From contig NZ_CP010797.1 in NCBI RefSeq assembly GCF_000954115.1, positions 2,666,001 to 2,730,000 on the forward strand: 64,000 nt of DNA, written 5' to 3'. The stretch is from Rhodococcus sp. B7740. Its GTDB lineage: Bacteria; Actinomycetota; Actinomycetes; Mycobacteriales; Mycobacteriaceae. Made by a program: the position numbers and the translations under genes. The notes under the pieces are model-generated. The model was not told the origin of the DNA and ran no database searches. It was given only the letters and a program-made list of their open reading frames with translations. Below, in pieces: positions 4,245-19,948 of the stretch (positions are counted from its first letter, which is position 1; each line of letters begins with the position of its first letter).

Positions 4245-5336
4245 TCAACGAGCGGTGATCGAGTTCCGTCGCTCCACCACCGCTGCGCCCAACGTGTCCA
4301 ATTGCGTTGCCGTCGTGTCCCAATCGAGGCAGGCGTCGGTGATCGACTGCCCGTACACCAGCTCGTCCCGGTGGCCGAGTTCGAGATCCTGACGGCCCGC
4401 GACCAGGAAGCTCTCCAGCATCAGTCCGACGGTGCCGTGTTCGCCTGCCGCCACCCGAGCGGCCACGTCGGTGACCACGTCGACCTGCTTGTTGTGGTCC
4501 TTACGACTGTTGCCGTGGCTGGCGTCGATGACCACCCGCTCCGGCAGACCCGACTTACGCAGTCGCGCAACGGTATCGGCGACCGATTCGGCGTCGTAGT
4601 TCGGCCCGTCGACACCGCCGCGCAGGATCACGTGGCAGTCGGGGTTCCCGACGGTGCGGATGAGAGCCGCCTGACCGTCGAGATCGGTGCCGGGGAAGAC
4701 GTGGCTCGCGGCGGCAGCGCGGGTGCCGTCGACCGCAACCTGGATGTCCCCCTCGGTGGAGTTCTTGATCCCCACCGGCATCGACAACGCGCTGCACAGC
4801 TGCCGGTGCACCTGGCTGGCCGCCGTTCGCGCACCGATTGCGCCGTAGCTGACCAGGTCTGCGATGTACTGCGGGGTGATCGGGTCGAGGAACTCGCACC
4901 CGACCGGCAGACCGAGCGCGGAAATGTCGAGCAGCAGTTGGCGTCCCACTCGCAGACCGGCGTTGATGTCGAAGCTGCCGTCGAGGTGCGGATCGTTGAT
5001 CAAACCCTTCCAGCCCAGCGTCGTTCGCGGCTTCTCGAAGTAGACGCGCATGACGATGTGCAGGCGATCGCCCAGTTCGGATGCCTTGGCGGCGAGGCGT
5101 CGGGCATAGTCGAGAGCAGCGGCGGTGTCGTGCACCGAGCACGGGCCGACGACGACGATCAGCCGATCGTCGCGGCCGTCCAGCACGTCGACCACGCCGG
5201 CGCGGCCGGTACGGACCGTGGCCGAGATCGCGTCGTCGACGGCATGCTCGCGGCGCAGCACCGACGGAGCGATCAACGGACTGATGCTGATGGTCCGCTG
5301 ATCGTCGAGAGGTGGGGTGTCGAGAGAGAGTGTCAT
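4245..5336 (-). CDS. aroG: Class I 3-deoxy-7-phosphoheptulonate (DAHP) synthase
   Basis: First enzyme of the shikimate pathway: condenses phosphoenolpyruvate and erythrose 4-phosphate. The 363-residue product has the class I AroF/G/H signatures DDRLIVVVGPCSVHD, MRVYFEKPRTTLGWKGLINDP, KNSTEGDIQVAVD, the HVILRGG strand and DASHGNSRKDH. The feedback type (Tyr, Phe or Trp) cannot be read from the sequence, so the symbol is generic. I start at ATG 5336 (MTLSLDTPPLDDQ), where family homology begins; the open frame continues upstream through the regulatory leader but without homology. The 150-nt leader encodes a peptide with Tyr-Phe-Trp-Phe codons and mutually exclusive stems (see 5360-5490), so expression is probably set by aromatic aminoacyl-tRNA supply. 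Confidence 0.93.
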   Translation of the reverse strand: MTLSLDTPPLDDQRTISISPLIAPSVLRREHAVDDAISATVRTGRAGVVDVLDGRDDRLIVVVGPCSVHDTAAALDYARRLAAKASELGDRLHIVMRVYFEKPRTTLGWKGLINDPHLDGSFDINAGLRVGRQLLLDISALGLPVGCEFLDPITPQYIADLVSYGAIGARTAASQVHRQLCSALSMPVGIKNSTEGDIQVAVDGTRAAAASHVFPGTDLDGQAALIRTVGNPDCHVILRGGVDGPNYDAESVADTVARLRKSGLPERVVIDASHGNSRKDHNKQVDVVTDVAARVAAGEHGTVGLMLESFLVAGRQDLELGHRDELVYGQSITDACLDWDTTATQLDTLGAAVVERRNSITAR

Positions 5337-5359
5337 GAGAGGGCGTTCCTGTTCCCAGG

Positions 5360-5452
5360 CCGGCTCCTCATGCTCCACACGCACTTCGAGCCGGTCTGTA
5401 TCCGGCTCGTGGGGTGGAAGTTCAGCGCATGGCGTCGCTGGCTGACCCACCC
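5360..5452 (-). promoter_or_regulatory. Putative attenuator of the DAHP synthase gene (competing stems)
   Basis: Read on the minus strand, four segments can pair in alternate ways. Segment 1 GGGTGG (5447-5452, inside the leader-peptide codons) can pair with CCACCC in segment 2 (about 5411-5417). The 3' part of segment 2, GAGCCGG (5402-5408), pairs perfectly with segment 3 CCGGCTC (5388-5394) across a 7-nt loop. Segment 3 pairs equally with segment 4 GAGCCGG (5360-5366), which ends 24 nt before the ATG. A ribosome stalled on the YFWF codons would favour 2:3; one that reaches the leader stop would cover segment 2 and let 3:4 form. No U-run follows 3:4, so control could be translational or Rho-dependent rather than intrinsic termination. 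Confidence 0.6.
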
Positions 5453-5490
5453 GGGGCCGGCCTGCTAAACCAGAAATACGTGCGCTGCAT
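5422..5490 (-). CDS. Leader peptide with Tyr-Phe-Trp-Phe codons, upstream of DAHP synthase
   Basis: A 22-residue ORF (ATG 5490 to TGA 5422) located 85 bp before the DAHP synthase start on the same strand. It begins MQRTYFWF, giving four consecutive aromatic codons at positions 5-8, then a Ser/Arg/Pro/Gly-rich tail. A run of codons for exactly the three end products of the pathway is the signature of classical attenuation leaders such as trpL and pheL. It has no obvious Shine-Dalgarno sequence, so a leaderless or near-leaderless transcript is possible. The function is inferred from position and codon content. Confidence 0.65.
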   Translation of the reverse strand: MQRTYFWFSRPAPGGSASDAMR

Positions 5491-5599
5491 GAGAGCACCG
5501 TAGCAGACGCTTCGTCGATGCATCTATGCTCGTCCCTGCAGTCGGTTCGCCAGGTGGTCATGAGGAGCCCCGAAGTTCACCACGGCGCCGAAGCGATGC

Positions 5600-5772
5600 G
5601 TGCGGTACGGCGCGTCGTGAGAGGGAACCCGGTGAGAGTCCGGGACTGTCCCGCAGCGGTATGCAGGAACGACCGCCGTCAACAGCACTGAAGAGGCCTC
5701 TTCGGGAAGCGACGGCCAGTAGGAGTGGACTGTTCGTCCACGTGCCCGCGAGTCCGAATACCTGCCGTCTGT
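5600..5772 (+). ncRNA. Cobalamin (B12) riboswitch upstream of metE
   Basis: The region has the conserved cobalamin-riboswitch core: GGGAACCCGGTGAGAGTCCGGGACTGTCCCGCAGCGGTA (5632-5661 region, listed here only by its paired GGAACCCGG/CCGGG and CCCGC elements), a GCCAGTAGGAG-like L4 box at about 5714, and the B12 box AGTCCGAATACCTGCCG ending near 5767. It lies about 140 nt before metE on the same strand. The known logic is that adenosylcobalamin binding represses the B12-independent methionine synthase when B12 is available. Ends are approximate. The sequence from 5773 to 5913 is the expression platform; no strong U-tract terminator is seen, so translational control is likely. Confidence 0.9.
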
Positions 5773-5913
5773 GCTGTGCACGCCGTGCGCAGCGGTTCAC
5801 CGCCTCGTGGAATGGGCGCGTAACCCTGGTACGGCTGCTCGTGGGGCTCTCCGGGATGCGCGCGCCCGAGAAGGCGGTGCGCCATCGATGCAGCAGTCAC
5901 TTGGAGAACTACC

Positions 5914-8169
5914 GTGAGTATCGAATTCACCGCCACCGTGCTCGGTTCCGCCCGTATCGGACCGAACCGAGAACTGAAGAAAGCCGTCGAATCCTACTGG
6001 GCCGGAACGCTCGACGCAGCCGCACTCGAATCCGTCGCGCGAACATTGCGCGAGAACACCTGGCGAGAACTCGTCGCTGCCGGACTCGATTCCGTTCCGG
6101 TGAACACCTTTTCGTACTACGACCACGTGCTCGACACCGCGGTCATGCTCGGCGCACTACCCGAGCGGGTTCGGAGCATCGACAGCGAGCTGGACCGCTG
6201 TTTCGCCGCCGCCCGAGGCAACGAGACCGTCGCACCACTGGAGATGACCAAGTGGTTCGACACCAACTACCACTACCTCGTGCCCGAAATCTCCCCGGCG
6301 ACAACCTTTTCACTGCATCCCGAGAAGGTGCTCGCCGAGCTCGAAGAAGCTCGCGCGCTCGATGTCCCGGCTCGACCGGTCGTCCTGGGACCGGTGACGT
6401 TCCTGTTGCTGTCGAAAGCAGTCGGCAGCAGCGCCCCGCTACTGGACCGCCTCGACGAGATTCTGCCGCTGTACGCGGAGCTGCTGACACACCTCGCCGA
6501 TGCCGGGGCGAAGTGGGTCCAGCTCGACGAACCTGCGCTCGTGGCCGACCGCACGCAGCACGAGATCGACTGTGCGAAGAAGGCTTACGACTACCTGAGC
6601 GCAGTGTCGACAAGGCCTGCCATACTGCTGGCGTCGTACTTCGGTGACCTCGGTGCGGTACTGCCCGTGCTCGCGTCGACCGGTATCGAGGGATTGTCGA
6701 TCGATCTGACGGTGCCGGGCACCGTCGAGCACGTTGCCGTGATACCTGCGCTCGCGAGCAAGCACATAGTCGCGGGCGTCGTTGACGGGCGCAACATTTG
6801 GCGGACGGATCTCGACAAGGCGCTGGCAACGTTGGCGAGCCTGTTGGGTAGTGCCGGCACGCTCGCGGTGTCGAGTTCGTGTTCGCTGCTGCACGTTCCG
6901 TACACCCTCGACGGAGAGACCGACATCGTCGATCCGCTCCGATCCTGGCTGGCCTTCGGTACCGAGAAGGTTGCCGAGGTGGCCGTCCTCGCGAGGGCGC
7001 TGCGAGAGGGCACCGAATCGGTGTCGTCCGAGCTCGAGCAGGCCCGAGCCGCGCTCGAGACTCGTCGCACCGACCCTCGTCTGCACGACGCGGCCGTTCG
7101 GGCACGTCTCGACGCGGGAATCTCCGTCGACCGCACCCCGGCCGAGGAACGCTGCCGGGCTCAGGCTGCGCGACTGGACTTGCCGTCGTTGCCGACGACC
7201 ACCATCGGTTCGTATCCGCAGACCACGCAGATTCGACTCGCTCGGGCAGCCCTGCGCACCGGTGAGATCGACGACGCCGAATACGTATCCCGGATGCAAT
7301 CCGAGATCGCCGATGTCGTTGCACTGCAGGAGAAGATCGGCCTCGATGTGCTGGTCCACGGCGAGCCCGAGCGAAACGACATGGTGCAGTACTTCGCCGA
7401 GCAGCTCAGTGGCTTCGCGGCCACGTCGAACGGCTGGGTCCAGTCGTACGGATCTCGGTGCGTTCGGCCGCCGATTCTGTACGGCGACGTCTCGCGCCCG
7501 AAACCGATGACCGTGCACTGGTCCGAGTACGCGCAGTCGCTCACCGACAAGCCGGTCAAAGGCATGTTGACCGGCCCGGTGACGATTCTGGCGTGGTCGT
7601 TCGTCCGAGACGACCTACCGTTGGCCGAATCCGCAGCCCAGATCGCCCTGGCGATTCGCGACGAGACGATCGATCTGGAGGCAGCGGGTATTCGAATCGT
7701 CCAGGTGGACGAACCTGCCCTTCGTGAGCTCCTCCCCCTGCGCTCGAAAGACACAGCGGCGTACCTGGACTGGGCCGTGCGATCGTTCAAGATCTCGACA
7801 TCCGGCGTGTCCGACCACACGCAGATTCACACGCATCTGTGCTACTCGGAGTTCGGTGAGATTATCGACGCGATCGCCGACCTCGACGCCGACGTGACGT
7901 CGATCGAGGCGGCCCGCTCGCACATGGAAGTACTCGACGACCTGAACTCGATCGGATTCGACCTCGGTGTCGGCCCCGGCGTGTACGACATCCATTCACC
8001 GCGGGTGCCGAGCGTCGACGAGATCACCGAATCGCTGCGGGCGGCATTGAAAGCAGTTCCTGCCGAACGACTCTGGGTCAACCCCGACTGTGGACTCAAG
8101 ACCCGCGGCGTGGCGGAGGTCGAGCGGTCGCTGAGAAACATGGTGCAGGCGGCGGCCGCGCTGCGCTGA
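5914..8169 (+). CDS. metE: Cobalamin-independent methionine synthase
   Basis: 5-methyltetrahydropteroyltriglutamate-homocysteine methyltransferase, 751 residues, the last step of methionine synthesis. It starts at GTG 5914 ([29 protein letters not shown] is the N-terminal MetE motif, here summarised) after a GGAG ribosome site. The zinc/homocysteine ligands are in place: H641 and C643 in [10 protein letters not shown] and C726 in NPDCGLKTR, the same numbering as in E. coli MetE. Both TIM-barrel halves are complete, with [12 protein letters not shown] opening the catalytic half. Control by the upstream cobalamin riboswitch fits a genome that also keeps a B12-dependent MetH. A strong hairpin follows the stop. 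Confidence 0.97.
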
Positions 8170-18991: not shown

Positions 18992-19948
18992 ATGGCGAGG
19001 GATCTGACACAGCTCGAGCTTCTGCAAGAGCTGGTGCCCACTGCCGAGGACAATGTGAACCGTCACATCTCGATGGCTCGCGAGTGGCACCCTCACGACT
19101 ACGTGCCGTGGGACGAAGGTCGTAACTTCGCCGCACTCGGCGGCCAGGACTACGACCCGGAGCAGTCCAAGCTCTCCGACGTCGCACAGGCCGCGATGAT
19201 CACCAACCTCCTCACCGAGGACAACCTGCCGTCGTACCACCGGGAGATCGCCGAGAACTTCTCCCAGGACGGTGCCTGGGGCACCTGGGTCGGCCGGTGG
19301 ACCGCCGAGGAGAACCGGCACGGCATCGTCATGCGTGACTACCTCGTCGTCACCCGCGGCGTCGATCCCGTCGCCCTCGAAGAAGCCCGCATGATCCACA
19401 TGACCAACGGGTTCGCCTCACCGGCGGGGTCGCAGACGGGTCTGCTCCACTCGGTCGCCTACGTGACGTTCCAGGAGCTCGCCACCCGTGTCTCGCACCG
19501 CAACACCGGCAAGGTCTGCGACGATCCGATCGCCGACCGCATGCTCCAGCGCATCGCCGCCGACGAGAACCTGCACATGATCTTCTACCGCAACATCACC
19601 GGCGCGGCGATGGACATCGCTCCCGATCAGACCCTCGACGCGGTCTCCGACATCGTGACGAACTTCGTCATGCCCGGTGCCGGTATGCCGAACTTCCGCC
19701 GCAACGGTGTGTTGATGGCCAAGCACGGCATCTACGACCTGCGTCAGCACCTCGAGGACGTCGTCTGGCCGGTCCTGCGCAAGTGGAGCGTGTTCGAGCG
19801 CAACGACTTCACCGGCCGCGGCGAGAACAAGCGCGAGGAACTCGCCGCGTTCCTCGAAGACCTCGAGCGTCAGGCCACCAAGTTCGAGGAGATGCGCGAT
19901 CGCTCCCTCGCCCGCGAACGCGCGAAGGCCGAAGCACGCGCGTCGTAA
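18992..19948 (+). CDS. desA: Acyl-ACP desaturase (DesA type)
   Basis: A 318-residue soluble diiron desaturase that introduces a double bond into acyl-ACP. The two diiron motifs are visible: EENRHG (ExxH) and DENLHMIFYR (ExxH), with the family block ALGGQDYDPEQSKLSDVAQAAM. It closely resembles mycobacterial DesA1, which feeds mycolic acid and unsaturated lipid synthesis, and lies next to dusB as in M. tuberculosis. It starts at ATG 18992 after GGAGGCGATCTA. The C-terminal tail is highly charged. A G·U-containing hairpin follows. Confidence 0.93.
   Translation: MARDLTQLELLQELVPTAEDNVNRHISMAREWHPHDYVPWDEGRNFAALGGQDYDPEQSKLSDVAQAAMITNLLTEDNLPSYHREIAENFSQDGAWGTWVGRWTAEENRHGIVMRDYLVVTRGVDPVALEEARMIHMTNGFASPAGSQTGLLHSVAYVTFQELATRVSHRNTGKVCDDPIADRMLQRIAADENLHMIFYRNITGAAMDIAPDQTLDAVSDIVTNFVMPGAGMPNFRRNGVLMAKHGIYDLRQHLEDVVWPVLRKWSVFERNDFTGRGENKREELAAFLEDLERQATKFEEMRDRSLARERAKAEARAS

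Follow-up and report, generated by a model that had tools for sequence, protein, structure and literature searches.

A conserved Tyr-Phe-Trp-Phe leader with competing RNA pairings, a probable ribosome-sensing attenuator of the class I DAHP synthase gene in Rhodococcus and related actinobacteria

The short open reading frame that precedes the class I DAHP synthase gene in the window (the whole stretch of 64,000 nucleotides that was analysed) very probably forms part of an aromatic-amino-acid attenuator of this gene; because the tests of its pairings against shuffled sequences give modest results, confidence in this assignment is kept somewhat below near-certainty. An aromatic leader lies 5′ of a class I DAHP synthase gene, as in the aroR–aroF system of Corynebacterium glutamicum, and the element is read as a ribosome-sensing attenuator of that kind. 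The best explanation as a whole, which we consider fairly probable, is that a ribosome stalled in the leader allows segments 1 and 2 to pair, giving the ON state, and that a ribosome which completes the leader allows segments 2 and 3 to pair, giving the OFF state. The parts of the element and the gene are the following, in window coordinates:

5502–5497, minus strand: TACGGT, a −10-like box preceded by TGC, 6 nt 5′ of the leader ATG
5490–5422, minus strand: leader ORF MQRTYFWFSRPAPGGSASDAMR, 22 codons plus stop, by ORF reading
5490–5488, minus strand: leader start ATG, from the sequence
5478–5467, minus strand: regulatory codons TAT TTC TGG TTT (Tyr Phe Trp Phe), from sequence and comparison
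5460–5447, minus strand: segment 1, within the leader ORF, comprising 1a (CCGGC, 5460–5456) and 1b (GGGTGG, 5452–5447), from pairing comparison
5424–5422, minus strand: leader stop TGA, from the sequence
5417–5402, minus strand: segment 2, comprising 2a (CCACCC, 5417–5412) and 2b (GAGCCGG, 5408–5402), from pairing comparison
5394–5388, minus strand: segment 3, CCGGCTC, a partner of 2b or of segment 4, from the conservation of 2:3
5366–5360, minus strand: segment 4, GAGCCGG, a possible partner of segment 3 with no U-run after it, from comparison and a double change in one locus (L277)
5350–5346, minus strand: AGGAA, the probable Shine-Dalgarno sequence of the DAHP synthase gene
5336–4245, minus strand: class I DAHP synthase gene (PF00793), 363 aa, ATG at 5336–5334, the regulated gene

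The first-pass annotation had described the 22-codon Tyr-Phe-Trp-Phe frame, 85 nt 5′ of a class I DAHP synthase gene, and the segments GAGCCGG, CCGGCTC and GAGCCGG at 5408–5402, 5394–5388 and 5366–5360; all of these are recovered on re-reading, the frame being common to all 37 genomes of the genus, and the present analysis adds the −10-like box, the 1:2 pairing, a second clan of leaders with a terminator-like hairpin, and Trp-free leaders elsewhere. Segment 1 starts 6 nt past the last aromatic codon and pairs exactly with segment 2, CCGGC with the GCCGG within 5408–5402 and GGGTGG with CCACCC, a complementarity absent from that annotation. Among the 825 short ORFs of the whole window (10–60 aa, the longest per stop), the leader alone carries a run of four aromatics that includes Tyr, Phe and Trp. 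A second ORF, antisense within a 689-aa ORF, has a four-aromatic run (WWWY), and a third has three aromatics in a row that comprise Tyr, Phe and Trp; whether chance could account for the leader is decided by its conservation.

The downstream protein matches the profile DAHP_synth_1 (PF00793, E 2.4e-84), which has this single match within its own 5.34-Mb genome, and the nearest DAHP synthases among the 80 matches listed, from Rhodococcus sp. and Rhodococcoides fascians, are 94–97% identical to it. The gene start at 5336 is likely to be the correct one. In close relatives, 85, 84, 83 or 82 nt separate the leader stop from the gene start; an N-terminal extension of the DAHP synthase through the leader would therefore lose the frame, and this possibility was rejected.

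The YFWF leader is present in every one of the 37 genus genomes, including seven in which the DAHP synthase is just 58–64% identical. In the family, class I DAHP synthase is found in 127 of 151 genomes, and the DNA upstream of the 155 class I loci read (37 of the genus and 118 further ones of the family; a weak second match of 90 residues in genome G128 stands outside this count) carries an aromatic leader at 154, in 26 genera. The sole exception, L085 (G110:C5:38186-39232), is a second class I copy without an aromatic leader, the first copy of the same genome, L080, having one. Tyr, Phe and Trp occur together in 153 of the 154 peptides (L154 is without Tyr), which bears out the original proposal that a single peptide serves all three end products. 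Two clans of leaders jointly span the 26 genera: clan A, to which the window belongs, has the form YFWF..PAPGG (88 loci, 12 genera), with the cluster YFWF in 85 of the 88 and YWF, YYWF and YAFWF in the rest, and clan B has the form YWRF..APGG with variants such as YRWRF and WRFYF (66 loci, 14 genera). Of the 85 YFWF leaders, 60 have TTC and 25 have TTT as their first Phe codon.

In named relatives, a scan of the genome collection with a degenerate pattern for YFWF and segment 1 matches at least 119 stretches; the genera among the matches listed are Nocardia, Rhodococcus, Rhodococcoides, Prescottella, Antrihabitans, Amycolatopsis, Saccharomonospora, Prauserella, Haloechinothrix and Actinophytocola. 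DAHP synthase follows in all 114 testable matches of those listed, the other five of the 119 offering only 39–387 nt from the motif onward. Together with the class II DAHP synthase copy of the window's own genome, which has no short ORF with an aromatic run within 600 nt upstream, this ties the leader pattern to DAHP synthase.

The transcription start probably falls on or beside the leader ATG, giving a leaderless leader mRNA, since a −10-like box lies 6–8 nt before the start. The motif TAnnnT occurs at this distance in 154/154 family leaders and in 119/119 of the named matches listed (98 at 7 nt, 15 at 6, 6 at 8). In the 145 leaders that could be anchored, the spacing is 7 nt in 119, 6 nt in 13 and 8 nt in 13; the motif stands at 6 or 7 nt in 132 of these 145, as against 204 of 9315 (2.2%) of all ATG and GTG of the same DNA, a comparison for which several in-frame starts were tried per leader and in which the control includes the leaders themselves. 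Leaderless leader peptides, some without a U-run, are reported for Streptomyces lividans in passages of PMC8079986.

In clan A, the 2:3 pairing is recovered by pattern at 85 of the 88 loci, with a loop of 5–10 nt; taken with the leader at 154 of the 155 family loci, this supports the initial claim of a conserved aromatic leader with competing stems. The hairpin GAGCCGG..CCGGCTC is exact in 109 of the 114 testable named matches listed, and in four named loci (L226, L230, L258, L267) its spacer is 4 nt. Comparison of upstream regions among relatives, which had been put forward as a check, thus finds the YFW codons and the 2:3 hairpin kept rather than lost. For the named loci, 6 of the 119 listed could not be parsed into segments and 10 of the other 113 are without a segment 4 by pattern; the scan pattern itself fixes segment 1, so that the invariance of 1:2 in them is a matter of selection. 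Over 51 distinct rows (from 87 of the 88 clan A loci, L150 being left out), pairing is kept in 254/255 cells for 1a:2b, 355/357 for 2b:3, 410/459 for 3:4, and 314/357 for 1b:2a; this last count is shifted in register at 33 loci, for which the final CAC was used. As the search patterns fix 2b and 3 almost wholly, and five of the nine positions of segment 4, these counts measure retention and are not independent proof. The pairing 1a:4, kept in 421/459 cells, equals 3:4 in score; it is broken in L081 and was not adopted, but may also form.

Covariation in clan A is thin, as expected for near-invariant segments that each have two partners. The compensatory stem changes that the first-pass annotation named as possible support are seen once for each of two helices, as a double change from C-G to A-U in 1:2 (segment 1 with 2b, in L081) and one from C-G to U-A in 3:4 (L277, Nocardia wallacei), segment 4 also showing changes that keep a G-U pair; the counts for 1:2, however, do not rise above shuffles, 121–125 of 500 of which reach them in clan A. 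A pattern-free test over 85 clan A loci, in which the real pairing is set against shuffles of the partner stretch, places the best downstream pairing of segment 3 in the top 5% at 42 loci (mean z 2.1) and the best pairing of segment 2 into the leader at 20 (mean z 1.4). Rfam gives no match at 5337–5490 at gathering thresholds, and at E 0.1 in L158, L095, L124, L305, L313 and L315 it yields the cobalamin riboswitch only.

The lack of a U-run after 3:4, already remarked on at the outset, is confirmed for the window, where segment 3 has none after it either; the leader therefore does not show the stem and U-run of the classical trp type. None of the 114 testable named matches listed has TTTTT in the interval from leader stop to DAHP synthase, which speaks against intrinsic termination; three of the 88 clan A family loci do, namely L071, L150 and L029, the last at the start codon. 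In L071 (618–730), CCGAGCCGG-ATCAA-CCGGCTCGG is followed by T7 directly after 2:3; in L150, T6 follows a hairpin made from segment 2. At these two loci, 2:3 or the segment-2 hairpin, together with its U-run, would end transcription.

In the mechanism that we propose, RNA polymerase would start at or beside the leader ATG and ribosomes would load on the leaderless mRNA, as the −10 box suggests; a shortage of charged Tyr, Phe or Trp tRNA would then, judging from the conservation of the codons, stall the ribosome in the codon run. Comparison and folding indicate that the RNA ahead of it could form 1:2, 2:3 or 3:4. While the ribosome is held up at Tyr, at the first Phe or at Trp, segment 1 would be free and 1:2 would form once segment 2 is made, upon which segment 3 would pair with segment 4 and the DAHP synthase gene would be expressed; a ribosome at the stop would cover 2a, thus preventing 1:2, so that 2:3 would form and expression would fall. 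For the OFF step in the window, which is without a U-run, the candidates are Rho acting on the untranslated 85-nt stretch, or hindered initiation.

The geometry of the stalled ribosome, modelled as covering 13 nt counted from the start of the A-site codon, agrees with much of this. Before segment 3 emerges, 2b is predicted to pair into the leader at 85 of 85 loci for a stall at Tyr (mean 0.99) and at 85 of 85 for a stall at Trp (mean 0.79); with the ribosome on the last Phe codon this drops to 4 of 85, and on the stop codon to 0 of 85. A stall at the first Phe codon should, by its position, act like one at Tyr; a stall at the second Phe would act like completion of the leader, which counts against the preferred wiring. 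Clan B leaders of the form YWRF have the cluster's only Phe codon in last place, and a stall there leaves 1:2 above 0.5 in 8 of 65. The distance from the leader stop to 2b is 10–16 nt in 84 of 85 clan A loci; a terminating ribosome should thus cover 2a and leave 2b about free. When segment 3 is present and the ribosome stands at Tyr, 1:2 is favoured over 2:3 at 31 of 85 loci, with a mean of +0.4 kcal/mol, which is near balance. At equilibrium, 2:3 exceeds 0.5 at 67 of 85 loci in the absence of a ribosome, and at 62, 74, 80 and 80 of 85 when the ribosome is placed at Tyr, Trp, the last Phe and the stop, respectively; 3:4 exceeds 0.5 at 70 of 85 when segment 2 is blocked. The stall geometry, the T7 after 2:3 in L071 and the folding before segment 3 emerges favour 1:2 as the ON state and 2:3 as the OFF state; the equilibrium dominance of 2:3 speaks against this direction and the energies are near balance, and on these modelled structures we lean only slightly towards a switch in which stalling gives 1:2.

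The opposite, trp-like direction, in which a stalled ribosome covers segment 1 and 2:3 keeps segment 3 from segment 4 (ON), 1:2 and 3:4 forming otherwise (OFF) and 3:4, near the start codon, shutting the gene by translation or Rho, is the foremost rival, if a doubtful one. The computed ensembles lend it some weight, since a ribosome on the last Phe codon gives 2:3 above 0.5 at 80 of 85 loci and 3:4 becomes frequent only once segment 2 is blocked, and 3:4 has one double change and sits just 5′ of the Shine-Dalgarno sequence. However, the stall at the last Phe is the only one that would cover segment 1, which is free or nearly free at Tyr and Trp, where all 85 loci are predicted to pair 1:2 before segment 3 is made; the terminating ribosome falls short of 2b in most loci; the U-run of L071 comes after 2:3, not 3:4; and in computed folds 3:4 leaves the Shine-Dalgarno region, if anything, more open (clearly so at 30 of 84 clan A loci, against 6 at which it is more open in 2:3). 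The wiring in which stalling yields 2:3, as first described for this locus, is therefore not supported.

Two further rivals dispense with ribosome sensing. That a regulatory protein recognizes the inverted repeat, as DNA or as RNA, the short ORF being of little weight, is improbable: GAGCCGG and CCGGCTC are near-invariant across genera, beyond what pairing needs, but segments with several partners are invariant anyway, the spacer between the half-sites varies (5–10 nt, and 4 nt in four named loci), which is unsuited to a rigid operator, and the aromatic codons are conserved outside the stems, with TTC/TTT switching. Least probable of all is an action of the peptide itself, as an arrest peptide that senses a small molecule or as a trans-acting small protein, for although SRPAPGG is conserved beyond the codons, with PAPGG, PALGG or PARGG after the aromatics in most clan A leaders, the DNA beneath it is segment 1, conserved as DNA, most leaders retain the bases of the CCG GCC codons that underlie the stem, and the later residues differ by genus (SASDAMR, SVGVTTR, SVCGNHAR).

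Returning to attenuation with 2:3 as the OFF state, translation control, which the first-pass annotation had offered as a possible output, finds little support. The computed accessibility of the Shine-Dalgarno sequence is nearly equal between states, at 0.39 in 2:3 and 0.43 in 3:4 for clan A (n = 84) and at 0.50 and 0.48 in the two states for clan B (n = 66), where it is more open with segment 2 blocked in 7 loci and with segment 2 free in 14; as it differs little in both clans, sequestration of this sequence was set aside as the output. By eye, a small hairpin, CCTG-AGAA-CAGG, lies over the Shine-Dalgarno sequence.

In clan B, segment 1 (GGCTCCGGGT), within the leader, starts 5 nt past the last Phe codon at 63 of 66 loci and pairs with ACCCGGAGCC; segment 2 was located by the core CCGG[AG]GCC at all 66. 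A GC-rich hairpin follows, which is likely a terminator where a T-run comes after it: within 60 nt of segment 2, TTTT is found at 32 of 66 loci and TTTTT at 25 of 66, the remaining loci having shorter T stretches such as TTTCG. The clan B helices (1:2 and the hairpin) are paired in 96.3% of cells over 41 sequences, as against 90.1% when shuffled and at most 49.3% when slid, and both sides change in 9 of 20 pairs (7 in the hairpin, 2 in 1:2), as against 3.6 when shuffled; 0 of 500 shuffles reach any of these measures. A search of clan B for an antiterminator, a structure able to keep the terminator-like hairpin from closing while the ribosome is stalled, found none. On visual inspection, GGGCACCGG and GGTGCCC, 3′ of the hairpin, repeat the plan of 2:3 and 3:4; in L102, for example, GGTGCCC can pair with an earlier GGGCACC or with GGCAC at the Shine-Dalgarno sequence (AGGAAGGCAC), and the alternative could possibly constitute a further switch at the ribosome binding site.

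Covariance models built from the two clans extend the comparison to 296 genomes of the class: at E 0.01, R1 (clan A) matches 16 of them and R2 (clan B, built from 41 rows that include L124 and L153) matches 43, of which 33 lie outside the family; searched against the window's own genome, R2 gives no match. L124 and L153, from genomes of 2.4–2.7 Mb and with leaders that carry WRFYF, look like the aroR–aroF type. The R2 loci were read for 22 of the 33 genomes outside the family (L176, L181, L301–L320), and 15 of them have a DAHP synthase like that of the window; L169, matched by R1 in a genome of the same order, has a YRWF leader before such a DAHP synthase. L316 and L317, without an aromatic leader, and L165 and L166, without a match to the window's DAHP synthase, look like false matches of the wide models.

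At L313, L318, L320, L164 and L167, the leader stands before proteins that join DAHP_synth_1 to a chorismate mutase domain (CM_2), the DAHP_synth_1 domain of L167 falling below its cut-off, and L314, L315, L168 and L163 (the last over 50 residues) resemble such proteins by tblastn. The nine leaders before these proteins and their tblastn relatives, which come from other actinobacterial families, contain Phe in nine, Tyr in five and Trp in none; Trp-free leaders before DAHP synthase–chorismate mutase proteins would fit the Phe/Tyr branch. Trp is also missing before plain DAHP synthase in one family, for example in RYRYF (L304–L310, L319), so that a rule by which the codon set follows the product set is not strict.

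The aroR–aroF attenuator of C. glutamicum was reportedly described by Neshat et al. in 2014. The window resembles it in having a short aromatic leader directly 5′ of class I DAHP synthase and in its proposed ribosome-sensing attenuation; unlike aroR, which is reported as Phe-Tyr-Phe, the window has Tyr-Phe-Trp-Phe and no intrinsic terminator, a comparison made by description. Passages of PMC11802643, PMC4046766 and PMC7356990 place an aromatic attenuator (aroR) before the DAHP synthase gene of C. glutamicum; in those of PMC11802643, Phe limitation raises aroF transcription through aroR, and aroR, given as Phe-Tyr-Phe, is called Phe responsive, Tyr availability being said there not to matter, a point against the explanation favoured here.

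The poly-Cys leaders of mycobacteria are likewise leaderless short ORFs with regulatory codons, stand before biosynthetic genes and have no obvious terminator. These leaders, which differ from that of the window in sensing one amino acid, cysteine, are said to have been characterized as leaderless by Canestrari et al. in 2020. Excerpts of PMC13236596 present them as leaderless and without an obvious terminator and propose translation attenuation, and leader ORFs without terminators are reported in actinobacteria in parts of PMC1262725. The wiring preferred for the window is shared by the ilvB1 leader of M. tuberculosis and the ilvBNC leader of C. glutamicum, in which, according to passages of PMC13236596 and PMC11857589, a stall gives an antiterminator and passage an OFF hairpin. 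Unlike the window, these leaders sense branched-chain amino acids, and both have a terminator. Leader codons combined with alternative-pairing segments are common to the window and to attenuators of the trpL type. In E. coli trpL, one amino acid is sensed, the Trp codons overlap segment 1 and the terminator has a poly-U; the window, by contrast, has codons for three amino acids and no U-run. A 2005 comparison of actinobacterial operons lists, in passages of its text, candidates for Trp, Cys and Leu metabolism together with ileS T-boxes, and in the same passages states that the genes of other amino acid pathways are not preceded by conserved structures (PMC1262725). In one open-access library, no report of a Rhodococcus DAHP synthase leader peptide was found, nor, for DAHP synthase attenuation or a leader peptide in Amycolatopsis, anything beyond the review PMC11802643.

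The kind of switch is thus known; this version of it is without an ordinary terminator. DAHP synthase, the first enzyme of aromatic amino acid synthesis, commits carbon to Tyr, Phe and Trp alike, and if the reading given here is true, one peptide that stalls when any of the three is short amounts to an OR-gate built from codons. More tentatively, and with somewhat less confidence than we place in the direction of the switch, the leaders may represent a class-wide family of actinobacterial DAHP synthase attenuators without an Rfam model: a leaderless any-of-three sensor for Tyr, Phe and Trp, whose codons tend to match the products of the enzyme behind it, and whose terminator would have been lost in the Nocardia/Rhodococcus/Amycolatopsis branch while the switch was kept, the same sensor driving a different, undescribed output. 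Clans with and without a terminator offer a comparison of how the output of an attenuator might pass from transcription to another step while its sensor stays. The element would also be a point at which the production of aromatics by Rhodococcus and Amycolatopsis could be deregulated; in C. glutamicum, aroR has been replaced for such deregulation, according to passages of PMC7356990.

The intergenic region of the DAHP synthase leader is shared with a second controlled gene. A cobalamin riboswitch (RF00174, 85.9 bits; window 5586–5783, plus strand) lies 5′ of a cobalamin-independent methionine synthase gene, identified by profile match (PF01717, PF08267; window 5914–8169, plus strand), and this unit diverges from the leader. 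Elsewhere in the window, on the minus strand, 35814–36009 matches the sRNA family Ms_IGR-5 (135 bits) and 19310–19377 the sRNA family ASdes (71 bits).
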